Shown piece after piece: positions 9,614-50,339 of a stretch of DNA of 64,000 nt. This DNA comes from Hyphomicrobiales bacterium (GTDB lineage Bacteria; Pseudomonadota; Alphaproteobacteria; Rhizobiales; Xanthobacteraceae), in contig JAJPKK010000326.1 of assembly GCA_021323775.1 (NCBI GenBank), positions 1 through 64,000 on the forward strand, read 5' to 3'. Position 1 is the first letter of the stretch; each line of letters opens with the position of its first letter. The notes beneath the pieces were generated by a model. That model searched no databases. It saw only the letters and a program-made list of their open reading frames with translations, and was not told where the DNA came from. A program made the position numbers and the translations under genes.

Positions 9614-10420
9614 ATGCCAGTCTCAAAAATCAGGGTTCGCGACGGCGCGCAACTCGCCTATGAGGTGAAGGGCCGCGTGCAAGACGCGGCCCCGCTCGTG
9701 CTCATCCATTCGCTGGCCATGGACCACACGTTCTGGAATGCCGTAGCGCGGGCCTTGAGCGATGCGACGGCTGTCGTGACGTACGATTGCCGCGGCCACG
9801 GCCAATCGGACAAGCCCGAGGGCCCCTATCGGGTGGAACAATTTGCCGACGACCTGGCCGATCTTCTGGATCATCTCGGATGGCGCTCGGCGATCGTGGC
9901 CGGCGCCTCCATGGGTGGTTGCGTCGCGCTGGCCTTTGCGGCTGCCTACCCGGCGCGCGCCGCGGCGCTCGGCCTGTTCGACACCACCGCCTGTTACAAT
10001 GCGCCCGACAAGTGGGAAGAGCGCGCCGCCATGGCCGAGGCCAGGGGCCTCGAAGCCATGCTGGAGTTCCAGACCACGCGCTGGTTCACCGATGCTTTCC
10101 GGGCCAGTCGCAAGGATGTGCTCGACGCGGCCATAGCGGTGTTTCTCGCCAACCCGGCGCGGTGCTATGCGCAGACCTGCCGGATGCTCGGCGCCTGCAA
10201 TCTCACTGATGTGCTCCAGCGATTGAAGATGCCGGTCCGCATCGTCGTAGGAGAGGAAGACTATGCGACGCCCATTGCCATGTCGGAGGCGCTGCATCGC
10301 GGCATCGCAGGCTCGACTCTGACCGTGATTCCGAATGCCCGGCACCTCACCCCGCTCGAATGTCCGGAGCGGATTGTAGCCGAACTGCAAAAGCTCGTCG
10401 AAATGGCGCCAGCACAATGA
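9614..10420 (+). CDS. Alpha/beta hydrolase, 3-oxoadipate enol-lactonase-like (second copy)
   Basis: YDCRGHGQSDKPEGPY, AGASMGGCVALAFA, NARHLTPLECP; overlaps coxG by ATGA. Confidence 0.85.
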   Translation: MPVSKIRVRDGAQLAYEVKGRVQDAAPLVLIHSLAMDHTFWNAVARALSDATAVVTYDCRGHGQSDKPEGPYRVEQFADDLADLLDHLGWRSAIVAGASMGGCVALAFAAAYPARAAALGLFDTTACYNAPDKWEERAAMAEARGLEAMLEFQTTRWFTDAFRASRKDVLDAAIAVFLANPARCYAQTCRMLGACNLTDVLQRLKMPVRIVVGEEDYATPIAMSEALHRGIAGSTLTVIPNARHLTPLECPERIVAELQKLVEMAPAQ

Positions 10421-11079
10421 TCGTCACTGGTGAAATCACCCTTCCGGCGCCCCGCGACATTGTGTTCAGCGTGCTCCGGGACGCGCCGTTCTTCGCCTCC
10501 TGCGTGGAGGGCGTGCGCGATCTCAAGGAGATTGACGCCACCCATTACGATGCCGTGCTACAGACCAAGGTCGCGTACGTGAACTTCACCTTCAAGGTGA
10601 GCGTGGAGGTCACACGGCTGTCGCCGCCAGATCGCATCGAAGCGAAAATAGAGGGCACGCCGCTCGGCATTGTCGGCCGCTTCACTGCGGTATCCACCAC
10701 CGACCTCATCGAGGCTGGCAGCGAGACGCTGGTCAAATACGCGATCGACGCCAACCTCACCGGCAAACTCGGCAGCATGGGCCAGCCGGTGGTCAAGGCC
10801 AAGGCCAAGGAGATGGAACGGAAATTCGCCGAGAAGATGCGCGCGGCCTTTGCGGAACAGCCCTTATTTGCTCCCTCCCCCCTTGTGGGGGAGGGTCGGG
10901 GTGGGGGGTCGGGCGTATTGCCTCCGAGAGTGGCCGCTGGCACGACCCCCACCCTCGACCCCTCCCCGGCCGAACCTCGCTATAGCGAGGGTTCGGCCCC
11001 TCAGCAAAGTGACCGAAGTCGGCAACAGCCGACTTCGACTGGGGGAAGGGAGAAGAATGGCTCCGGAGCCGCCTCATGA
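10417..11079 (+). CDS. coxG: CoxG/SRPBCC family protein (CO dehydrogenase subunit G-like)
   Basis: GEITLPAPRDIVFSVLRDAPFFASCVEGVRDLKEID...YAIDANLTGKLGSMGQPVVKAKAKEMERKFAEKM; low-complexity tail. Confidence 0.85.
   Translation: MIVTGEITLPAPRDIVFSVLRDAPFFASCVEGVRDLKEIDATHYDAVLQTKVAYVNFTFKVSVEVTRLSPPDRIEAKIEGTPLGIVGRFTAVSTTDLIEAGSETLVKYAIDANLTGKLGSMGQPVVKAKAKEMERKFAEKMRAAFAEQPLFAPSPLVGEGRGGGSGVLPPRVAAGTTPTLDPSPAEPRYSEGSAPQQSDRSRQQPTSTGGREKNGSGAAS
10871..10912. repeat. Palindromic C/G-rich element within the coxG 3' end
   Basis: CCCTCCCCCCTTGTGGGGGAGGGTCGGGGTGGGGGG, translated as SPLVGEGRGGG. Confidence 0.7.
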
Positions 11080-38546: not shown

Positions 38547-38942
38547 TTGTCGGCGATGACGCCCGACCCGCTGGTCCCCGCCATCAAGACGCATCAAGCC
38601 TTGCTCGGACGCGCGCCGCATCTGGCGGCGGCGGACGCCGCGTTCTACTCCGCCAACAACGAGGCCGGCGCGAAGGCGAGAGGCGTCAAACGCGTCTGCA
38701 TTCCCAATCGCTCGACCAAAAGCCTTGAGCGCAAGCGCGAGCAGAAAAAGCGCTGGTTCCGCAACGGCCAGAAATGGCGCACCGGCTGCGAGGGCCGCAT
38801 CAGCGTCGCAAAACGGCGACATGGCCTGCGCCGCTGCCGCTACAAGGGCTTCGTCGGAATGCACCGCTGGGTCGGCCTCGGCGTCATCGCCGACAACCTC
38901 ATCAATATCGGGCGCGCCATGAAAAAGCAGGCGGCTCCTTAA
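38547..38942 (+). pseudogene. Transposase C-terminal remnant
   Basis: Only the C-terminal part: FRNGQKWRTGCEGRISVAKRRHGLRRCRYKGFVGMHRWVGLGVIADNLINIGRAM (ISNCY-like); no N-terminus or IS ends seen. Confidence 0.65.
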
Positions 38943-39215
38943 GCCGTCACGACACCATCAAGTTTGTCGCCCCGCTGACCCGACGCGGTTTTGCCTTGTC
39001 TGCGCTATTGACCACAATGCCCGCAAACATCAATTTTGCGCCGAGCTAAGCTGGACGTTGAAGGGGCGATGCCATGTCCTGCTCCAGTATTTCGTTGAAG
39101 CGCCGAAACGGCTATTCGTCCAGCCGAAAAGTAAGGATTGGACTGGAGCTCAGTTCGCAAGTTAGGGTCCATCCAGAATGCTTGGAAAGCGCGACTAAAT
39201 GAGAGCGCAAATGCA

Positions 39216-41264
39216 ATGCTTGAACTCGCAGTGACTTTCAATCGGAGTCTCGACCGGCTGACAGCAAGCGAGCAAGCGCTCGCGAAGCAGACCGTGTTCG
39301 ATTACATGACCGATCCGACACGGCCGGGACTTTCGCTTCATCGCATCGACCGCGCCCGCGACAAGCGGTTCTGGACTATCCGCTCCGGCCTCGATCTTCG
39401 GATCGTCGTTTTGAAGGAAGGAGCGCGGTCGCTCTTCTGTTACATCGGCCACCATGACGACGCTTACAAGTGGGCAGAGGGACGGCGCTTTGAAGTGCAC
39501 CCGGTGACCGGGGCTGCGCAGATTGTCGAATTCGAAGAAGTCGTCCGGAAGGAAATCCGGGTTGTCCAGCAAGAGGCCGTACGGCCAGGGCTTTTGGCAG
39601 GCGAGACGCCTGAGTATCTCCTCAGCGTCGGCGTACCTGAAAGTTTCATCGACCTCGTGCGCAGTGTCGATGAAGATGGCCTGCTCGAACTTCTTCCGCG
39701 CTTGCCCGAGGAAGCCGGGGAGGCGCTGCTCAATCTCGCAGCGGGCCATCGGCCGGTTCCTGCTACGGCGCTTGCGAAAATTCCTGCGGTCGATCCTTTT
39801 GATCATCCGGATGCGCAGCGCCGATTCTGGGTGGTCAGCGATCAGGAGCTAGTCGCTCAGGCCCTAGCGAAGCCGTGGGCCGAATGGCTGGTGTTCCTGC
39901 ATCCCTCCCAGCGGGCTGCCGTCGAGCGGAACTTCAACGGTCCCGCACGCGTGTCGGGCACAGCGGGAACGGGGAAGAGCGTTGTTGCCATGCATCGCGC
40001 GGCCCGCCTCGCGCGTGCGCCTGAAGGCGGGCGAGTGTTTCTTACAACGTTTTCGAAGGCTTTAGCGGGAAGGCTCGCGGAGGGTATGGATACGCTGCTG
40101 GGCCGGGCTTCGGATGCGCGTGCCCGTGTGGAGGTCGAGCATTTGCATGCTTATGCCCACGCTCACGCCTCGCGGCTCGAAAGGCCAGGGATTGCAGATG
40201 GTCCAACCATCGACGCCCTGATCAGAGCGGCGCGCGGGAATCTTGACACCGCTTTCGATCATGACTTTCTTCGCGCGGAATGGGACGCCGTCATCGACTT
40301 CTGGGGCGTTTCCTCATTTGAGGACTACCGCAATATTCCGCGTGGCGGCCGGGGCGCCGCATTGCCGGTGGCAGTGCGCCGTCGCTTGTGGGATGTCTTC
40401 AGCGCGGTGCGGCAAGGCCTTGCGTCACGCAACCTTCTTACGTTCGGCGACATCTGCGACGTGCTGCGGCAGCGTATTGAAAGGGATGGAACGCGGCCGT
40501 TCCGTCATGTCATCGTCGATGAAGCCCAGGATTTCGGGCCCCGTGAGATGAAGCTGGCCGCCTCGCTCGCGCCGCCTGGATCCGTGTTCTTTGCCGGCGA
40601 TGTCGGCCAGCGCATCTTCCGGTGGCCGTTTTCCTGGACGGCGGCCGGCATTGATGTCCGTGGCCGCTCCCTGCGCCTCAAAGTGAACTATCGCACGAGC
40701 GCAGAGATTCGCCGCTTTTCGGACCGCTTGCTGAAGGCCCGCATCACCGATGTGGACAACGAGATCGATGACCGCCAGACCTCATCCCCGCTGCATGGAC
40801 CGGATCCGGAAATCAAATCGGCTCCTGATCTCGCTGGCGAGATCGATCTTCTGGTGAACTGGCTCACGGCGCTGCGGGAGCAGGGGACGGCGCCCGGTGA
40901 AATCGCCATTTTTGCCCGAACCAGGAAGGCCCTTGAGCAGAGGGCGTTGCCCGCGCTGAGGCGCTGTGCGCTTTCAGGCGCTTGGCTTTCGCCGGATCAG
41001 AAGGTGGTAACGGGGCACGTCAACCTCGGCACGCTCCACGCAGCGAAAGGACTGGAGTTTCGCGCCGTAGCCGTGGTCGCGTGCGACGATTCGCAGCTTC
41101 CGCTGCGCGTCGCCATGGGCATGGCGAGAGATCAGGATGCCAAGCAGATCGTGGAGCAGCGTGAATTGAGCCTTCTCTATGTCGGCTGTACGCGGGCCCG
41201 CGAGCGCTTGCTCGTGACCTGGTCGGGGCAGCCCTCCCGGTTTCTGGAGAGCAAGTCGGCCTGA
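39216..41264 (+). CDS. Fusion: RelE/ParE-like N-terminal domain plus UvrD/Rep-like SF1 helicase
   Basis: N-term LAVTFNRSLDRLTASEQ...LHRIDRARDKRFWTIRSGLDLRIVVLKE...CYIGHHDDAYKWAEGR; helicase SGTAGTGKSVVAMHRAARL (Walker A), VIVDEAQDF (Walker B), LLYVGCTRARERL (motif VI). Confidence 0.85.
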   Translation: MLELAVTFNRSLDRLTASEQALAKQTVFDYMTDPTRPGLSLHRIDRARDKRFWTIRSGLDLRIVVLKEGARSLFCYIGHHDDAYKWAEGRRFEVHPVTGAAQIVEFEEVVRKEIRVVQQEAVRPGLLAGETPEYLLSVGVPESFIDLVRSVDEDGLLELLPRLPEEAGEALLNLAAGHRPVPATALAKIPAVDPFDHPDAQRRFWVVSDQELVAQALAKPWAEWLVFLHPSQRAAVERNFNGPARVSGTAGTGKSVVAMHRAARLARAPEGGRVFLTTFSKALAGRLAEGMDTLLGRASDARARVEVEHLHAYAHAHASRLERPGIADGPTIDALIRAARGNLDTAFDHDFLRAEWDAVIDFWGVSSFEDYRNIPRGGRGAALPVAVRRRLWDVFSAVRQGLASRNLLTFGDICDVLRQRIERDGTRPFRHVIVDEAQDFGPREMKLAASLAPPGSVFFAGDVGQRIFRWPFSWTAAGIDVRGRSLRLKVNYRTSAEIRRFSDRLLKARITDVDNEIDDRQTSSPLHGPDPEIKSAPDLAGEIDLLVNWLTALREQGTAPGEIAIFARTRKALEQRALPALRRCALSGAWLSPDQKVVTGHVNLGTLHAAKGLEFRAVAVVACDDSQLPLRVAMGMARDQDAKQIVEQRELSLLYVGCTRARERLLVTWSGQPSRFLESKSA

Positions 41265-41285
41265 ACCGCTGGCCCGCCCCCGCCC

Positions 41286-44261
41286 TTACGTCTTCACTGT
41301 GCCGCTGAAGAGCCTGTCGATATCTCCCTCGCCGGTTGGCGGCGCCAGCATATGGCGGGACAGTTGGCGTTTGCTTTCGATCAGCCGGTCGAGCTGTTCA
41401 TCGAACGAGTGGTCCGGCAAACCCGGGTGTACCGCGAGAGGAATATGGATCGTGACCGGTTTGGTCTGGCCGATCCGGTAGGCGCGGTCGTTGCATTGAT
41501 CCTCAATCGCGGGGTTCCACCACCGGCTCAGATGAATGACATGGTTGGCGGCGACAATGTTGAGGCCGACGCCGGCTGCCTTCGGCGACAGCAGAAGGAC
41601 GCCGAACCCGTCCCCGGATCGCGCAAATGCATCCACGATCGCCAGACGTCTTTCACCGGGTGTACCGCCATTGATCACGGCCGGCTTGCGGTCAAGATCA
41701 AACATCGCTGCAATTCCGTCCGCGACGGCGTCCTGCATCGCCAGATGCTCGATAAAAATGAGCGCCTTTTCTCCACGCTTCTCGATGTCGCGGAGGATCT
41801 CGATCGTCTTCGCAAGCCGGGCCGACCGGCGCGCAAACGCTTCGAACCGCGCGCCATCGACGCCGGCTATTTCGGCCGGGTCACGTGGATGAAGTGAAAT
41901 CCCCCGCATCGCGTGAAGGACGCGGAGCATATGACCGCGCGTTCTCTCGCCGCCGTTGCAAGCCTCCACGATCAATTCGCGATAGACCTGCGCTTGCTCA
42001 TCTGGCATCGGCGTGGGGTATCTTTTTTCTTCCTTCTTTGGCAACGCGTCCAGGACATCGGCCTTCATTCGCCGCTTCATCACCGGCGGCGCCTTATCCG
42101 CCGGATCGTCAAGCATCGCCTTCAGCTTCTTGAGTTCTTCCGGCGCCTCTGGGCGGAAAGTCCTGGAAAACGTTTTGAGATCGCCGAGGTAGCCGGGGGC
42201 GATCCGATCGAATATGCACCAGAGATCTTCCATTCTGTTTTCAATGGGCGTTCCCGTCAGGCCGAGAACGAAATCGGCATTCAACGCCCTGGCGGCTTTC
42301 GTATTCAGCGTATCCGGAGCTTTCACTTTCTGCATTTCGTCGAAGATCACGACGGGGTAATGGATGCGCGCAAACGCCTGTTCGTGGTCGGTCAAGGTTT
42401 CATAGGTTGTCAGGATCCAATCGGCTTGACGCATCCGGGTGACGTCAAGGGTTTCCCCCGGGTCCGCACGGCGGGAGGCGTCAAGCTTGAGCCTGGCCAG
42501 CGCTTTGCCATAGGCGTCCACCCTCTCACCAAGTCCCTCGGATGATAGGCGCTCTGTGCATTCCTTTTCCCAGTTCTTGAGGAGAGCCGTAGGGGCTACC
42601 ACGAGCAGCGGCTTGCTCTCGACAGAGCCGGATCCACGTTTGCGCGCCTCGGCGGCATTGCTTTTGATCCAAGCCAGAAAGACAAGCGCCTGAAGTGTCT
42701 TGCCCAAACCCATGTCGTCCGCGAGCAGCACCCCGGGCCAGCCGGCTTTCCAGGCATCCGTCAGCCAGCAGAAGCCCTCCACCTGATGCCGCTTCAGGAT
42801 CGTAGACCCGAGACAGTGGATCGGCGGCTTTGGAGCGATAAATGTCGGCCGCTGCTTCAAAGTGAAGGTGTAATCGACGCCGTCGAAATTCGTCTTCTTG
42901 ATTAGTAAGACGAGTCGCGCGCCTGGGGTCTTTGGTTCCGTGCCAGCGTCGTCCCCGTTGGGCGGAACAACGGGGTCGGGGCCACACTTAGCCGTCCGTT
43001 CGCGCTCCGTTACAAGAAGCTGAGGGACGGCATCGATCGGGATCGCAACGCCCCTGACGACCACGTGGGTGTCGCCGTTTGCTTCAGCCCGCTCGATATC
43101 GCGTTCGATCTGATCAAGCTCGTCGGGCGTAAACGGCTCCGTCTGGACGGGCTCGCCGCCCGCGATCCACCCTGTCTCCGGCAGCCATTGATTGGGGATT
43201 CGCGTCAGCCACGGCAAACGCGGCCGTTCCCAAAGTCCGAGGCCTTCGACGCGGTCGGAATAATTCTTCGTCTCAATGAACAGCGATGCGGAAGGCGCAT
43301 CGCCGGCTTCGGGATTGAGCGCCTCGGCAAGAGCCGCCTTCGGGTTGCGCAAGAACGCCCGCCGCTCCTCCACAGACGCGCGTCGCTTCGCCTTTACGAC
43401 GTCCAGCGCGCGCTTGAGTGCCGGGTCGATCAGGACGTAGCGGTTTTTTCCGATAACGTAGGCGTCGCGGGTAGGCCCGTCCTTTATGGCTTGCTCCAAA
43501 AAACTGCGATGATCATCGGCGGACAGCAGCGTGTCGGACGCGCCTTCGGATCGGCTTGCGTTCTCGTCATCGACCGGTGCGTCATCTTCGAGCGAGGGTG
43601 CGCGGTCGCGGCTCATCAGGATCGGCGTGAAATCCACGCCATTTGGACTTTCGTGGACGTCGAGCGCAAAGGCGCCGGCCTGGAAAATCGTGAATGTCTC
43701 AAGGTAGCCGTCGCACCGGATGTCATGCCCCGTTGTGTCTCTCAGGGCCGTCTGGACCGGCATCCAGCGGGCGATCCTTTCATCGTGCGGCCCTCCAATC
43801 GTCCGGTTATAGTCCTCGGCTGCTTGCACGATCCGCAACAGCGGTGCTGAGAGGCGCCCGAACTGCGCGCCCCACGACAGCTTTAGACCGACCCGCTCAG
43901 GGCGTACCTCCTCTCCGGTCCTCTCGGTCCAGCGCAGGCGAAGGCGGCCATCCGGCTTTTCGACGCGACTGTCGAGGGCGACGGTCAGGCCGAGCGGAAC
44001 GAGCGGCGGCAGTCCGATGCAGTCGGCCACTTCGGGCGCAAGAGCCGCGGCGGTTTCGGAGGAGAGGTGCACATCGAAATCGCTCGCTGTCGCGATGCCC
44101 CGCTCTACGAGGTCCTCCAACGCGCGAACAGCGGGGCGCAGCTTCGGCGCTCGCGCCCAGGCTCGGCGCTCAAGCGGCGTTTCCCTGCCGAACAAGGATT
44201 TCTCGGAGACGGTGACGCGGACTCCGTCTCCAGCGATCTCACTGCGAAAGCGCGGGGCCAT
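41286..44261 (-). CDS. zorD: Zorya ZorD, SNF2-type helicase
   Basis: 991 aa; LLADDMGLGKTLQALVFLAW, VVIFDEMQKVK, GLTGTPIENRMEDLW, SPKAAGVGLNIVAANHVIHLSRWWNPAIEDQCNDRAYRIGQ; last gene of zorABCD. Confidence 0.9.
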   Translation of the reverse strand: MAPRFRSEIAGDGVRVTVSEKSLFGRETPLERRAWARAPKLRPAVRALEDLVERGIATASDFDVHLSSETAAALAPEVADCIGLPPLVPLGLTVALDSRVEKPDGRLRLRWTERTGEEVRPERVGLKLSWGAQFGRLSAPLLRIVQAAEDYNRTIGGPHDERIARWMPVQTALRDTTGHDIRCDGYLETFTIFQAGAFALDVHESPNGVDFTPILMSRDRAPSLEDDAPVDDENASRSEGASDTLLSADDHRSFLEQAIKDGPTRDAYVIGKNRYVLIDPALKRALDVVKAKRRASVEERRAFLRNPKAALAEALNPEAGDAPSASLFIETKNYSDRVEGLGLWERPRLPWLTRIPNQWLPETGWIAGGEPVQTEPFTPDELDQIERDIERAEANGDTHVVVRGVAIPIDAVPQLLVTERERTAKCGPDPVVPPNGDDAGTEPKTPGARLVLLIKKTNFDGVDYTFTLKQRPTFIAPKPPIHCLGSTILKRHQVEGFCWLTDAWKAGWPGVLLADDMGLGKTLQALVFLAWIKSNAAEARKRGSGSVESKPLLVVAPTALLKNWEKECTERLSSEGLGERVDAYGKALARLKLDASRRADPGETLDVTRMRQADWILTTYETLTDHEQAFARIHYPVVIFDEMQKVKAPDTLNTKAARALNADFVLGLTGTPIENRMEDLWCIFDRIAPGYLGDLKTFSRTFRPEAPEELKKLKAMLDDPADKAPPVMKRRMKADVLDALPKKEEKRYPTPMPDEQAQVYRELIVEACNGGERTRGHMLRVLHAMRGISLHPRDPAEIAGVDGARFEAFARRSARLAKTIEILRDIEKRGEKALIFIEHLAMQDAVADGIAAMFDLDRKPAVINGGTPGERRLAIVDAFARSGDGFGVLLLSPKAAGVGLNIVAANHVIHLSRWWNPAIEDQCNDRAYRIGQTKPVTIHIPLAVHPGLPDHSFDEQLDRLIESKRQLSRHMLAPPTGEGDIDRLFSGTVKT

Positions 44262-44262
44262 G

Positions 44263-45654
44263 TCAGGGAGCCCGGTAGTCCGACGGCTGGACGCGGACGC
44301 CGATCAGTTGGTAGAGCCGCTCGGCGACACGATTCTGCCAAATGTAGGTGTCCGCGCCTACGTGGGTAAACATGTCGTTCTTGTTTAGATTGGGTTCGGT
44401 ACGGTCGTTCTTCGGCAACGGACGCATGATCTCATCAGTCGTGTAGTAAGGGGCGTTGAGTTTCGGGCAATTCCGGTCTGATTTCTTCCAGATGTTACAA
44501 CGTCCATTGTGGCTCCAATCGGCGACGATGCATTCGCCGAAGTCCAGCAACAGGACGGCATGTCCAGGCTCAATTTGTCTTCTGCCGCCGGATCTAAACC
44601 TTCCGAAGGGGACATCCTTTCCGAACGCTCGCCTCGCCTCCACGGCTCCTTCATCGCCGAAGATGACCCAGGCGTTCTGCAGCAGCTCTTTCTCATGGTA
44701 GGCCTGCCAGAAAGCCCGCCGGTATTTCCACATGTGGTCGGGCGCGATTTTGTCCACCACGTCCAAAAACTGCCGCAGGGATTGCTCGATTAACCAGCGC
44801 CGCAAGATATCCACGACGTCGTCCAGTCCGATCCATTCGCCTCCGGATATGCGCGGATCCCCGAACCGGGCGATCAGGAAATTCAATATCTCGTTGCGCT
44901 CTGCCAGAGCGGGAATTCGTTCCCCGAACGGCAGCACGACGGCGCGGGCCAGCTGCCCCTTGCAACGTTTGAAGATCAGACGTTCCTCATCGAGCGACCA
45001 TCGTCTGACGGTGTCGATGCGTTCCACCGCGGTGTGCACCGGCGTGCTGCGCAGGATTTCAAGGCCCTTGTCGTGGACCGCTTCCGCGAAGCCAGCCTCC
45101 AGGAGCATCCCCCTGACCCCCGCCGGCTTCAAAAGGCCTTGGATGTTCGTCTGTTCTTTCAGCGCGAGGCGGGCAATCCGCCCGACCGCCTCGGCGCCGG
45201 TGAAGAGGGCGTATCTGGCCTGCAGTTTATCCCATGGCTCGCCGGCAGCGGACGCAAAGTCGCGCAGCACGCCGCTGATCTGTGCAAGCTTCGGGCGGTC
45301 AATTGCGAAGTCGGTGAGATATGCCGAGGCAAGCTGGCGGTAGGGACGCCTCTTCTTGTTACGGACCATGTCGACGACGCGATTGAGCATTGCGTCCAGG
45401 GCCCTATCGTCTTCAGCGACGGCGGGTTTGGTTGTCCACAGGCACCAGGCGATCCTGTTCCAGTCCCGCAAGCTCGGCTGCGTTCCGCGCCTGATGCACG
45501 CGATGAAGTTTCCGGCGACGCTGTCAAGATCCACATGCGGTCTTTCAATCGGAGCGACGGGAGGCAGGCTGCGGGCGAGCCGCGCCGTCGTCCCCTGTTC
45601 CGGCATCGGCCGGGCGCGCAAACTCAATCGCTCGACTGCGGTCAGAAAGCCCAT
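44263..45654 (-). CDS. zorC: Zorya ZorC (EH_Signature-type protein)
   Basis: 463 aa between zorB and zorD; C-terminal EARRAFGKDVPFGRFRSGG...HAVLLLDFGECIVADWSHNGRCNIW. Confidence 0.87.
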   Translation of the reverse strand: MGFLTAVERLSLRARPMPEQGTTARLARSLPPVAPIERPHVDLDSVAGNFIACIRRGTQPSLRDWNRIAWCLWTTKPAVAEDDRALDAMLNRVVDMVRNKKRRPYRQLASAYLTDFAIDRPKLAQISGVLRDFASAAGEPWDKLQARYALFTGAEAVGRIARLALKEQTNIQGLLKPAGVRGMLLEAGFAEAVHDKGLEILRSTPVHTAVERIDTVRRWSLDEERLIFKRCKGQLARAVVLPFGERIPALAERNEILNFLIARFGDPRISGGEWIGLDDVVDILRRWLIEQSLRQFLDVVDKIAPDHMWKYRRAFWQAYHEKELLQNAWVIFGDEGAVEARRAFGKDVPFGRFRSGGRRQIEPGHAVLLLDFGECIVADWSHNGRCNIWKKSDRNCPKLNAPYYTTDEIMRPLPKNDRTEPNLNKNDMFTHVGADTYIWQNRVAERLYQLIGVRVQPSDYRAP

Positions 45655-45655
45655 C

Positions 45656-46525
45656 TCAGGGAGTTTCCTTTAATTTCTCGATCTCTATTCTCATCTGCTG
45701 GAGGAGTCTCTGCATCTCCTCAAGATCGGCAGTCGGGTCCGTGTCCATGACGAATCGCAGATCAATCCTTCGATTCTTCTGCCGGGCGTCCGGAGTGTTT
45801 CCCGTATCAAGTGGACGCGTAGATGAATAACCGGAGATCGACAGGATCTCCTGATCGCTGCGGTTGTGAAGGCGGCGCAATAAGGGAGCTCTGAACGTAA
45901 GCTCACGATATGTGTTTGCCGCTCGTTGAACTGATAATACCCAGTTCTGGTCATCCGGCCCAATTGTGTCCGTATGCCCTTCGATGAAGACGGTTTCGAT
46001 CGATGCATTTGTTTGGTTCTGACAGCCCGTATCCAGCGAGGAAGCCTTTGTGCAAGACACGTACGCCGGCAGCACGCTCGCCAAAACAGGAGCAATTTTC
46101 TTTACTTTTTCCCTCGCGTCATTGTTGAGGTTCGCATTGCCGAAGTCAAATTTGATTGTGTCTTCAGTTAAACGAAGCACGCCGTTTAACTCATCCACTT
46201 TTACTTTCACTCCGACAGCGTCGAGCTGGTCATGCAGCTCGTAGAGCAGTTTCTGTCGCAGCCGCGTGGCTTGTCGCAGTTCGTCAAGGCGTTCGCTGAT
46301 ACGCTTCTCGATATCCGCCAGCTTTCGTTCAATGACGTTGGCATGCGCAATCTTGGTGTCTTGCGTCGCTTTCGTAGCGTCTGTCTGCTGCCGGAACAGG
46401 AAAGCGAAGCTCATCAACATGATGATGAAGATGAAAAGCATACCCACCATCATGTCGGTCATCGAGACGAAATAGTTCTCGCCCTCGCCGCGATCGTAGG
46501 CATCGGCGCTCTCTGCAATCGCCAT
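45656..46525 (-). CDS. zorB: Zorya ZorB, MotB/OmpA-like stator protein
   Basis: N-terminal TM FVSMTDMMVGMLFIFIIMLMSFAFLF; OmpA-like EGHTDTIG...LSVQRAANTY...NRRIDLRF. Confidence 0.93.
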   Translation of the reverse strand: MAIAESADAYDRGEGENYFVSMTDMMVGMLFIFIIMLMSFAFLFRQQTDATKATQDTKIAHANVIERKLADIEKRISERLDELRQATRLRQKLLYELHDQLDAVGVKVKVDELNGVLRLTEDTIKFDFGNANLNNDAREKVKKIAPVLASVLPAYVSCTKASSLDTGCQNQTNASIETVFIEGHTDTIGPDDQNWVLSVQRAANTYRELTFRAPLLRRLHNRSDQEILSISGYSSTRPLDTGNTPDARQKNRRIDLRFVMDTDPTADLEEMQRLLQQMRIEIEKLKETP

Positions 46526-46541: not shown

Positions 46542-48623
46542 TCAGCGGGGGCGCGGGGATGCGCCGTTTGGAGACCTTCGTGGCGAACCGCCGTCTGGAG
46601 GAAACTGTCCGAGAACCTGGGTCAGGTTGTCCAAGGTCTCGTCAAGACCACTCATGGTATTGCTGATCTTGCTCAAGAACGTCCCGGTGTGTTCATCGAT
46701 CTTGATGACAAACGCTCGCATCGCCTCCTGATGGTTCGAAACCTCCTTCTGGAAACCGTCAACCGCCCTTTCGAGGGCCTCGTCGACGCGATTGAACCGG
46801 GCTTCGTAATTGGTCCACACGCGCCCGATCTGTTCCAGGTGCGCGTCAAGGCGCTCGGCGATGCCGCTGGCCTTCTGTTGGGTCGTCGATAGCGCGCCTA
46901 CCGAGCTTTCGATCGATTTCGTCATCTTGTCCGCTGAGTGGGCGACCCGTTCAGACGAAGCGACGATCGGCTGGCTCGCGGCGCGGGCGCTGGCAGCGAC
47001 CTGGCTGAAAGCCTCGGCCGTCTCGCGCGACCGTCTGCTGACTCCGTCGATGTGCTGGGTCTGCGCCCGGAAGGCGCTTTCTACGGATTGGAGCGTCGCT
47101 GCAAGCCGGCCAATATCGGCGCTCAGGTTTTGTGTTACTTCGCCAATGGCATTTCGCATGGCCTCCACTGCGTCGTGCGTCGCCTTCTGCGTCGCCGCAA
47201 CCACCTCGTCAGCCGCGCGCTTGCTCGCGTCGGCGGCCGCCTCTCCGGCTTTCCGCGCGATCGTCCCGCTTTTCTCCATTTGCTCGGCCACGGCGAGCTG
47301 CAGCGCAGCCATACTCTCCGCAAAGGTCGCGTTTTGAGATTCAAGCTTCCCGACCAGCCGCTCCATCGCGCTATCGAGAGTTCCGGCCGCGCCGGTTGCA
47401 GAATGACCAAGCGCGGCGCCCGCGTCGGCGATGATGCGGCCCAGGTTCTCCGCAGCGATGGCTAGCTTGTCCGACACGTCCCGCCCGGAGCCGGCGAGGC
47501 TCTCCCTTATGACTTCGAGGCCCGTCTGCAGGCTGGTCAGCGTCTCGATAACTTTCCCAAGCTCCTGTCCGGCTCCTTGATCGAGCTTGCCTATGAACCG
47601 GTTGATCAAGTCTTCGACGCCGGTTTGCGACGTTTGCGTCAGCGCGTTCATCGTCTCTTTGAGGCTGGTGGAGACGGGGCTGATCGCCTCCGCGACTGCG
47701 GTCTGAAAACGAGGAGCAATCGAGTCGCCGAGGCGCGCAAAGAAGGCCTCGCTGTTGATCTCCTTGAGTTGGTCGCGCTGGGCCGCGAGCAAATCCAGGG
47801 ACTCGGCAGCAATCCGCTGTGGCGGCTGGAACTGCAAGCGATCGCCGAGTGCACGGCCGAAACGGTCGAACGCGCCTTCAATCAGAATCTGGTAGACGCG
47901 GAAAAGCAGCGACAGCGCCAGCGAGGCGCCGAGACCGGCGATCGACGTCGCGAACTTGAAGGTGGCGGCGTTGAGGAGCTCGCCCAGGGACTGTTTCATG
48001 GCGTCTGCGGACGCCGCGTTCGTGCCGCCCGCCGCCTTGTGGAGCGCCAGCACCAGCCCGATGAATGTCAGGAGCAGGCCGAGGCCGACGAAAAAGCCGG
48101 GGATCGAGGGCATCATCTTGAGGCCGAACAGCCGTTCGCGGGCATGCGCGAGATTGATGAAACTCTGGGGACGAACGGTGTTCTGTACGACCTTCTGCTC
48201 GTCGTCGCGAAGGAGGGTCCTTGAGAACTCCCGCCACGCAGGTCCGATGAGGGCGTGCCGGCGGAGCTTCTGGGAGACGCCATCAAACGCCGTGGCGAAA
48301 GACCGGGGATCGTCAGCCGGCCCCAAAGCGTGTCTTGCCACCCATAACGCCGCGTGAATCAACAGGACATGGGCGACCAGAAAGGCAACGGCGAGCGCGA
48401 GGCCAAACTGGACGATCGCGGACGCGAGGGCGAATGCGAATCCCTCTTGCGTGACAAGTTCGAGGAGGTTTTGCCGGTTCGCCTTGAAGACGCCTGATAA
48501 CAGTTGCCAGTCGGAAAAGGGCAACACGGGAGCGAGAGCAAAAAGAGCGCCCCAAACCAGGATCCAGAACAGCGGAAGGCGGACTGCGGCGTTCCACGTC
48601 CAATTGGCAGCAAAGAGGCTCAT
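46542..48623 (-). CDS. zorA: Zorya ZorA, MotA/ExbB-like proton-channel protein with long tail
   Basis: MSLFAANWTW start at 48623; TM region with SIPGFFVGLGLLLTFIGLVLALHKA and FATSIAGLGASLALSLLFR; ~350 aa helical tail. Confidence 0.93.
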   Translation of the reverse strand: MSLFAANWTWNAAVRLPLFWILVWGALFALAPVLPFSDWQLLSGVFKANRQNLLELVTQEGFAFALASAIVQFGLALAVAFLVAHVLLIHAALWVARHALGPADDPRSFATAFDGVSQKLRRHALIGPAWREFSRTLLRDDEQKVVQNTVRPQSFINLAHARERLFGLKMMPSIPGFFVGLGLLLTFIGLVLALHKAAGGTNAASADAMKQSLGELLNAATFKFATSIAGLGASLALSLLFRVYQILIEGAFDRFGRALGDRLQFQPPQRIAAESLDLLAAQRDQLKEINSEAFFARLGDSIAPRFQTAVAEAISPVSTSLKETMNALTQTSQTGVEDLINRFIGKLDQGAGQELGKVIETLTSLQTGLEVIRESLAGSGRDVSDKLAIAAENLGRIIADAGAALGHSATGAAGTLDSAMERLVGKLESQNATFAESMAALQLAVAEQMEKSGTIARKAGEAAADASKRAADEVVAATQKATHDAVEAMRNAIGEVTQNLSADIGRLAATLQSVESAFRAQTQHIDGVSRRSRETAEAFSQVAASARAASQPIVASSERVAHSADKMTKSIESSVGALSTTQQKASGIAERLDAHLEQIGRVWTNYEARFNRVDEALERAVDGFQKEVSNHQEAMRAFVIKIDEHTGTFLSKISNTMSGLDETLDNLTQVLGQFPPDGGSPRRSPNGASPRPR

Positions 48624-48899
48624 CTCATCCCCGGCTGGTTTGTTAAGATGCAGATGGAAGGCTCTCCACCTGACGATGCTGGCCCTGATGACGCTGTTAT
48701 CGCGCGATCCTGTTCGAGAGAACTGGTCCGCAACGACATCACCGGCCATGCCTCGCCGAAACGCCAGACACGATTGCATATGCCGGGAGGGGGCACGGCA
48801 AACAGGGCCGCGCGCCACGCTTTCACCTTGGTTCCCGGCGTCGAAGGCGTGCGCGCTTGGAATGCTCGCAAAGTGGTCATCACTTCTATGTTACATCTT

Positions 48900-49071: not shown

Positions 49072-49575
49072 CTATCCAAATTCGAGAATGACTGGCGATC
49101 CAAGCTGTTCGGCCATGCGGACGCGAACAGCTGCACGCTTGATCTCCGTCGCCTGCTTTTGTGGCGGCTGCCGAAAATCGTGGCGCACGAGCCCCTCGGT
49201 ACGCCATGCGCCGAATCCCTGGTCCAAAAGGATCGTCAGGCAACCTCCGCCCCTCGATGAGCAATGAGCCGCGCCATTGCGCCCGCTTGGAGCCCGGCCA
49301 TGAGGTGAGGGGTGCCGCATTCGGCGCAAACGAGGATTTCAAAGGCCGGGGCGCCGCAGGCGCAATGGTCCCGCTGCGCGAGCCACAGAGCGCCAAATTC
49401 CCAGCCCGCATCCGCAGTCGCCAGCTCTGCATCCCGGTGCGGACAAGCGGGATCGATGCAGGCCCACAATCCGCCTTGCGCACGCAGGAATAGATGGGCG
49501 CGCCAGGGTAGAAGATGCAGGCCTGTCTGCGGACACCGGGCGAGCGCTGCGGCGTCGAGAAGCGTCTGCGCATTT
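49072..49575 (-). pseudogene. Remnant of a Cys-rich superfamily II helicase, frameshifted
   Basis: Minus-strand reading LLINAQTLLDAAALARCPQTGLHLLPWRAHLFLRAQGGLWACIDPACPHRDAELA...HCACGAPAFEILVCAECGTPHL, then a different frame LLDQGFGAWRTEGLVRHDFRQPPQKQATEIKRAAVRVRMAEQLGSPVILEFG. Confidence 0.55.
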
Positions 49576-50339
49576 ATCAGGAGCGCGCACCGCGCAACGC
49601 GGTCTATGACAAGTACGCCAAGCGCTACGTGGCGACCGATATGTTCAAGCCGATTTTTCTCAAGCCTGATCCCGATGGCTATCTCTCGCGGCTGCGGTCC
49701 CTGTCTGAAGGGCTGGCAGAGCGGTCAGAGTCGTGGATTGCGCAGCCGCCGGACGCCGACATTGCGGTGACGCCCCGCCGTGCCGTGGACCCGCCGGTGC
49801 TTAAGGCGGTCCTCACGGCCGTGCGGGAGAAGCGATCGGTCGAAGTGTATTATCAGTCGTTGAGCAAGGAGCGCCCTAAGCCGATCTGGCGGCGGATGAC
49901 GCCGCATGCCTTCGGCTATGACGGCTTCCGCTGGCACGTGCGGGCCTTTTGCCACCTCGATCGGAGCTTCAACGACTTCCTCCTGCCCCGTATCTTGGGG
50001 GCCCGGGATATGGGTGATTCCGGCCCGGGGGCGGAGCATGATGTGCTGTGGCAGGAAACGTTTGACGTGGAGATTGGCCCGCACCCGGAGCTGACGGAAA
50101 GCCAGAAGGCCGTCGTTGCCAAGGATTACGGCATGGTGGGCGGCCGGGCGGTCCTCAGGGTTCGCTACGCGATGCTGTTCTATGTGCTTAAGCGCCTCGG
50201 TCTGCTGGGCAACGCGGTGAAGCAGAATCCACGCACGCAGCACATCGTGGCGTTGAACGCGAAGGAGACAGCACGGGCATTGAAACGCGCGGAAACGGAG
50301 TCGCAACAGCCTTTGCCGTCAGCACGAAGAGTCTCCTGA
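49515..50339 (+). CDS. WYL-domain regulator, BrxR/CapW-like, lacking the N-terminal winged helix
   Basis: RLRIYQERAPRNAVYDKYAKRYVATDMFKPIF linker and WYL region VEVYYQSLSKERPKPIWRRMTPHAFGYDGFRWHVRAFCHLDRSFNDFLLPRI; in-frame TAG upstream. Confidence 0.75.
   Translation: MQACLRTPGERCGVEKRLRIYQERAPRNAVYDKYAKRYVATDMFKPIFLKPDPDGYLSRLRSLSEGLAERSESWIAQPPDADIAVTPRRAVDPPVLKAVLTAVREKRSVEVYYQSLSKERPKPIWRRMTPHAFGYDGFRWHVRAFCHLDRSFNDFLLPRILGARDMGDSGPGAEHDVLWQETFDVEIGPHPELTESQKAVVAKDYGMVGGRAVLRVRYAMLFYVLKRLGLLGNAVKQNPRTQHIVALNAKETARALKRAETESQQPLPSARRVS

Follow-up and report, generated by a model that had tools for sequence, protein, structure and literature searches.

Does a toxin-like domain carried on a DNA helicase serve bacterial immunity and, if so, what holds it in check? 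The question is raised by a single open reading frame of 682 amino acids (39216-41264, forward strand) within the window, the whole 64,000-nucleotide stretch of Hyphomicrobiales DNA that was analysed. ORF analysis of the window confirms that the frame, singled out in an initial annotation of this DNA, is real, and Pfam matches, alignments, and motifs point to an armD-like gene encoding a RelE-fold N-terminal domain fused to a UvrD-like SF1 helicase. Translation likely begins at the ATG at 39216. This start is preferred over an upstream TTG at 39138, use of which would yield a protein 26 amino acids longer, because relatives of the protein begin at the same alignment position as the ATG, nearly all of them with ATG themselves.

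The gene lies, as the initial annotation held, between a transposase remnant (38547-38942, forward strand; PF13751 DDE_Tnp_1_6, E 4e-8) and a Zorya operon, whose convergent zorD ends at 41286 on the reverse strand and leaves a gap of 21 nt between the two stops (41265-41285), the approximate distance originally given. The absence of an adjoining antitoxin gene was likewise correctly observed: the neighbours are the transposase remnant and zorD, the ORF list of the window holds no small antitoxin-like frame beside the gene, and no small antitoxin gene recurs next to its homologues among approximately 60 loci, where the recurrent neighbours are instead a restriction endonuclease (RES) and a methyltransferase (MTase). 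With respect to type II toxin-antitoxin systems, therefore, the RelE/HigB toxin fold is present and the adjoining antitoxin gene is absent. As no antitoxin gene adjoins this one and none recurs among the homologues, we infer that control must be exerted in cis or through large partner proteins. Searches near the gene for conserved RNA or tRNA features found none, and a promoter scan returned nothing above chance.

A predicted RelE fold joined to a complete helicase

The proposal that the N-terminal domain is of the RelE/ParE type is supported by structure prediction. When residues ~1-106 of the window protein (39216-39533; all coordinates within the gene are on the forward strand) were compared with Pfam as a single sequence, no match was obtained, and yet the HigB-like toxin family PF05015 is matched by 36 of 37 family members (best E 4e-6). 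In an AlphaFold2 model (pLDDT 88.7, pTM 0.81) the domain does adopt a RelE fold, the point on which it had been decided beforehand that the proposal could fail, and the top Foldseek matches of this model in the PDB are exclusively RelE-superfamily toxins, among them RelE, YafQ, YoeB, and HigB (E 7e-5 to 1e-3, target TM 0.61-0.75), with the CARF-RelE CRISPR effector Cami1 (8phb, 8phj) lower in the list. A PDB search with the single window sequence recovered helicases only, and a profile of the N-terminal domain matched M. jannaschii RelE3 with an E value of 0.84, which is not significant alone.

The N-terminal domain is more conserved than the protein as a whole, with a mean column identity of 70% in an alignment of 37 rows versus 58% in a separate full-length alignment of 45 rows. 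R62, H80, D81, A83, Y84, and W86 show no variation among the aligned members, whether linked to restriction-modification (RM) genes, to ARMADA, or to Zorya. By hand alignment to E. coli RelE, Arg62 (39399-39401) presumably corresponds to RelE Arg61, and Y84, which lies within the motif HHDDAYKW (residues 79-86; 39450-39473), a candidate active-site or RNA-binding segment, to RelE Y87. In the same alignment RelE K52, K54, and R81 are replaced in the family by W53, approximately I55, and H80. The protein thus resembles RelE/HigB type II toxins in fold and in the positions of Arg62 and Tyr84, and differs from them in its fusion to a helicase, its lack of an antitoxin, and its invariant His80 in place of Arg81. 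HigB, YoeB, and YafQ, for example, show that toxins of the RelE family use varied catalytic residues. Because the R62- and Y84-type positions are kept while the K52, K54, and R81 positions are replaced, it is plausible that the domain cleaves RNA by means of an altered active site.

The C-terminal two thirds of the protein are placed in the UvrD/GajB group by Pfam (UvrD-helicase, E 9e-14; UvrD_C, E 3e-17), NCBIfam, and PADLOC. All SF1A motifs are present, and with them the full SF1 helicase described in the initial annotation: Walker A GTAGTGKS (residues 248-255; 39957-39980) and the motif II/Walker B sequence DEAQ (residues 435-438; 40518-40529), both of which are invariant in the family, followed by GDVGQR, NYRTS, TLHAAKGLEF, and, by motif reading, motif VI YVGCTRAR (residues 655-662; 41178-41201). 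PADLOC and NCBIfam hold no system-specific model for the gene, the best PADLOC match being NERD+UvrD C3a187, which covers the helicase part alone (98 bits). Among the structural matches of that part is HelD, a UvrD-family protein that binds RNA polymerase. Several homologues are labelled "3'-5' exonuclease" at NCBI; no exonuclease domain appears in the Pfam results. In a model of the full-length protein the helicase fold is clear and residues ~185-251 and 463-527 are of low confidence, such that how the RelE domain sits against the helicase is not readable from it.

Kinship with ArmD and the operons of the relatives

The initial annotation placed this architecture outside any named system, a view that does not survive comparison with ARMADA type II, whose ArmD protein consists of a RelE-like domain followed by a GajB-like UvrD helicase (PMC12458937). 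Domain order, helicase motifs, and length (704 amino acids in ArmD, 682 in the window protein) all agree, and the window protein is 34% identical to a homologue encoded on an E. coli plasmid (L062) over residues 14-677 (E 2e-97). Since the Walker A lysine of this plasmid copy is residue 266 and its motif II aspartate residue 454, in keeping with the numbering of the published mutants, it can be assigned to the published ArmD family (PMC12458937), and the window protein is almost certainly ArmD-like. Within the open-licence literature searched, the ARMADA preprint (PMC12458937) is the only report of a RelE and UvrD, or GajB-like and RelE, fusion. GajB of Gabija is likewise a UvrD-family defence helicase, and the PADLOC models for GajB recognise the helicase portion of the window protein (best 66 bits); GajB, however, lacks a RelE domain and works with GajA, and no GajA-like gene adjoins the window gene.

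Published analyses demonstrate that loss of any one ARMADA II gene, or the Walker A substitution ArmD K266A, abolishes defence against HK022, that the motif II/Walker B substitution D454N leaves partial activity, and that protected cells remain intact and survive infection without metabolic shutdown; the ArmD mutations reported all affect helicase motifs and not the RelE domain (PMC12458937). The partners of ArmD in this system include a YprA helicase and a PglX-like methylase. Despite the likeness of the proteins, the loci differ. Firstly, armD closes a defence operon of methylase and helicase genes, whereas the armA-armB-armC-armD order is absent from the window, with no ArmA, ArmB, or ArmC beside the gene. 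Secondly, ARMADA accompanies type II Zorya in E. coli, whereas the Zorya of the window is type I. Additionally, the window copy falls in the other half of the tree from the ARMADA clade (split support 100). Elsewhere in the same genome ArmC had no match, in a search run without a positive control, and ArmB had one weak match of 160 amino acids on another contig.

Homologues were gathered from 60 loci found in a search of genome contigs and, once genomes and plasmids had been added, numbered 96 distinct proteins of at least 600 amino acids. Their context, which had also been named beforehand as a possible refutation of a role in defence, consists overwhelmingly of defence operons or islands. 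Eleven reside in ARMADA-like loci, in which an N6-methylase and a giant DEAD/DEAH helicase precede the armD-like gene; such loci are found on plasmids of, for example, E. coli, Microvirga, Aulosira, and Haematobacter, and a Thermus plasmid copy is a long-branched case. Far more often, in approximately 75 of the 96, the gene lies near a type III-like methyltransferase (PADLOC PDLC03632), and at more than 50 of these ~75 loci a RES of the BPTD_3080 family is also present (NCBIfam NF046055; score 1224 bits, cut-off 800); several of the remaining homologues are truncated by contig ends or have short flanks. The usual operon order is RES, an optional gene, MTase, an optional gene, and the armD-like gene, the optional positions being filled by GmrSD_N/DUF262, an AAA_15/OLD-like ATPase, a weak GIY-YIG match, NYN, or HNH. 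Neither a paper on BPTD_3080 nor an account of this operon was recovered from the open-licence literature searched, which is not proof of novelty.

The slot between the MTase and the armD-like gene is variable, as if it were an exchangeable effector position, and holds OLD-like ATPases, GIY-YIG-like genes, HNH-like genes, or genes of unknown kind (L006/L016/L049, L019/L042/L060, L026/L036/L039, L018/L027/L048, L009).

The RES-MTase-ArmD-like operons represent the nearest large group of homologues (41-46% identity to the window protein) and often adjoin type I Zorya, placed tail-to-tail as the window gene is. Unlike these operons, in which RES (NF046055) and MTase_III (PDLC03632) precede the armD-like gene, the window copy has neither gene upstream, and no intact RES or MTase was found in its genome, where MTase matches are weak only. 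On another contig of this genome (G000:C81:12810-13067, reverse strand; L125 ~9811-10068) lies an 86-amino-acid stretch of a BPTD_3080-family restriction gene (MKMATGSGKTTVMAMLIAW...), broken by other sequence, which suggests that a RES operon was formerly present there.

In two trees, of 96 and of 61 proteins, the ARMADA members form one clade (support 100) and the RM-linked members another, large one (97-99), and the window protein pairs with its nearest homologue, L035 (SH-aLRT 96). L035 derives from a Pseudomonadales MAG, sits on a long branch, and is encoded directly upstream of zorABCD on the same strand, such that both members of the pair adjoin type I Zorya without RES or MTase. The window copy thus branches outside the RES-MTase clade, although the AU test does not reject its inclusion there (p 0.39). 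A third, Zorya-linked lineage built on these two sequences is offered as a suggestion, given the long branch of L035 and the AU result. That the gene is a recent orphan of a RES-MTase operon was also considered and is disfavoured by the tree, with the same AU value of 0.39 for an RM-linked placement.

The neighbouring Zorya operon and its linkage to the gene

As judged by PADLOC and NCBIfam, the adjoining type I Zorya operon is contiguous and intact, with all four genes on the reverse strand: zorD, encoding an SNF2 helicase of 991 amino acids (41286-44261; PADLOC ZorD1, 1057 bits), zorC, with an EH signature (44263-45654; ZorC1, 502 bits; PF15611), the MotB/OmpA-like zorB (45656-46525; ZorB1, 288 bits), and the MotA/ExbB/TolQ-like zorA (46542-48818; ZorA1, 689 bits from residue 76; NCBIfam NF033914, 581 bits), the true start of which is probably downstream of the GTG at 48818. 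Divergent from zorA is a gene for a WYL-domain protein (49515-50339, forward strand; PF13280, E 4e-10), which may regulate the island; regulators of the WYL type are known to occur together with defence islands (PMC9122601). Seven ZorD proteins of the order (L172-L178) are close to that of the window (45-61% identity, all others 41% or less), and together with it they form a subgroup of Zorya I.

In order to avoid selection on the armD-like gene itself, Zorya loci were sampled by ZorD alone across 378 genomes of the order, yielding 22 matches including the window, with flanks available from 20 of the 21 other loci. An armD-like gene lies within ~10 kb at six of these 20 loci (G383, G1018, G948, G980, G1103, G916), mostly accompanied by its own RES and MTase and in varied orientation. 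It is missing from the other 14, and is thus not a regular component of type I Zorya. Because the gene is found anywhere in only ~7% of related genomes (7 of 100 other genomes), this linkage is far above that of random placement, and the general clustering of defence genes must explain part of it. Across the class, co-occurrence within genomes is not striking (ZorD is present in nine other genomes and the gene in 18, with one genome having both), and the link to Zorya is therefore local and found mainly in the order. Where tail-to-tail arrangement with zorD was observed, the intervening distance is 21 nt in the window, 17 nt in G916, 84 nt in G980, 168 nt in L106, and 557 nt in L043, from Phyllobacterium; L199 and L211 are arranged similarly, and in L043, L106, L199, and L211 it is a complete RES-MTase-ArmD operon that occupies this position. 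Two further candidates (L151, L152) were removed from the counts when their zorD-like matches of ~40 bits proved to be generic SNF2 helicases.

GajB-like helicases of ~700 amino acids that lack a RelE domain were also encountered, tail-to-tail with zorD at three type I Zorya loci (L196 6191-8278, L198 5956-8163, L197 11278-13362) and directly after an armD-like gene at two others (L038 12109-14223, L213 ~9465).

A proposed cis-held RNase and its alternatives

We assign a probability of roughly one half to the reading in which the window gene encodes an ArmD-like anti-phage protein whose RelE-type RNase would be kept in check in cis by an ATP-dependent DNA translocase of the UvrD family. Under this proposal a partner sensor would mark foreign DNA, the role being filled by YprA and the PglX-like methylase in ARMADA, by the MTase and the BPTD_3080 RES in the commoner operon, and possibly by Zorya in the window. 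The helicase would then load onto the resulting single-stranded or damaged DNA, and its translocation would free or position the RelE domain such that RNA is cut locally, the targets being phage transcripts, or the ribosomes translating them, with no global killing of the cell. A separate antitoxin would be unneeded because the helicase part would both restrain and aim the toxin domain. The window protein may have lost, or may never have had, ARMADA and RM partners, and the adjoining type I Zorya could supply processed DNA in their stead.

Consistent with such a mechanism are the RelE fold, the complete helicase, the alignment to ArmD, the lack of a recurrent antitoxin neighbour, and the invariant R62, H80, D81, Y84, and W86. 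Precedents for control in cis may, by analogy, be seen in Cami1 of type III CRISPR and in Hachiman. The former, a RelE-CARF protein, cuts mRNA in the ribosomal A-site only once activated (PMC11229360), and is thus an immune RelE domain ruled in cis by a fused domain and not by an antitoxin; its sensor, however, is a CARF domain that binds cyclic oligoadenylate, not a helicase, and it shows no sequence kinship with the window protein beyond the RelE fold. In the latter, the HamA nuclease is restrained by the HamB helicase until DNA damage is met (PMC10925250). Local action is favoured over global action because ARMADA cells remain viable and metabolically quiet during infection, while the partial activity of the ArmD Walker B mutant indicates that translocation may not be the whole story (PMC12458937). 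Moreover, with neither ARMADA nor RM partners present, the window gene may be inactive or have another role.

The main rival to a cis-held RNase, less probable and in our view doubtful, is that the RelE-fold domain has ceased to be enzymatic and could serve as a docking or nucleic-acid-binding module, directed at a partner complex, RNA polymerase, or ribosomes, while the helicase does the work of defence. Replacement of the canonical RelE lysines and of Arg81 accords with a non-catalytic domain of this kind; given, however, that RelE-family toxins vary in their catalytic residues, the loss of Lys52, Lys54, and Arg81 does not prove inactivity, and R62, H80, D81, and Y84 are strictly conserved where such toxins keep their active site. 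The presence of the RNA-polymerase binder HelD among the structural matches of the helicase also fits a docking role, as does the mapping of published function loss to the helicase (PMC12458937).

It is unlikely, though the transposase remnant directly 5' of the gene lends the idea some appeal, that the window copy is a decayed leftover of a RES-MTase-ArmD operon once situated beside Zorya, kept by chance once its partners had been lost to a transposon. Whole operons of this type occupy the same position against zorD at four other loci, and the broken BPTD_3080 fragment on another contig would be a natural residue of such an event. The frame nevertheless remains intact over 682 codons and retains all helicase motifs and all family-invariant residues of the N-terminal domain; furthermore, the window copy and L035, neither of which has RES or MTase, group together outside the RM-linked clade, such that any loss need not be recent.

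Less likely still is that the gene represents a dedicated fifth component of a type I Zorya subgroup, in which the RelE-helicase would follow once ZorA-D had opened or processed the phage DNA. ZorA-D are described as sufficient for Zorya function, and the gene is convergent with the Zorya operon and outside it. The tail-to-tail position shared by the window, L043, L106, L199, and L211, the placement of L035 directly upstream of zorABCD without RES or MTase and its grouping with the window copy, the occurrence of the gene near six of 20 Zorya loci, and the three further loci at which a RelE-less GajB-like helicase faces zorD would all be expected of a Zorya component. Against this, 14 of the 20 loci lack the gene, the six linked copies carry their own RES-MTase operon in varied orientation, as plain defence-island clustering would give, and the AU test does not reject a window copy placed among the RM-linked proteins (p 0.39).

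A stand-alone abortive-infection toxin, as the initial annotation had suggested, is very improbable, since despite the RelE-superfamily fold, the lack of an antitoxin, and the Cami1 precedent (PMC11229360), homologues are nearly always found in multigene operons with a methyltransferase, and the ARMADA II relative requires all four genes and leaves infected cells intact and surviving, without host metabolic shutdown (PMC12458937).

The significance of the fusion extends beyond ARMADA, outside of which it is far more widespread than inside (~75 of 96 homologues beside an MTase). ArmD is essential to ARMADA defence, and the wider contexts bear on why a RelE toxin is joined to a DNA helicase at all. 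Three aspects may be new: the predominance of non-ARMADA restriction operons among the relatives, the frequent linkage of the RES-MTase-ArmD-like operon to type I Zorya, and a window copy that stands beside Zorya without ARMADA or restriction partners and is tentatively paired with one Zorya-only relative (L035). It is conceivable, and put forward with considerable reservation, that a portable RelE-UvrD effector serves at least three DNA-sensing immune systems (ARMADA, BPTD_3080/MTase_III, and type I Zorya), with the window copy and L035 as a Zorya-dedicated lineage that would give Zorya an RNA-cutting arm. Service in several unrelated DNA-sensing systems would make the fusion a general, antitoxin-free means by which recognition of foreign DNA is converted into destruction of RNA. 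The ARMADA, RES-MTase, and Zorya contexts provide natural comparisons, and R62, H80, D81, and Y84 are direct targets for mutation.

A final observation concerns three Aliiruegeria species (L055, L056, L057; ~9995-10825), in which a shortened homologue consists of the RelE domain and middle region, ends at approximately residue 240, just before Walker A, and shares 45-49% identity with the window protein. This helicase-less version persists across species, and is an intact 277-amino-acid ORF beside a GNAT-like gene in L055 and L057.
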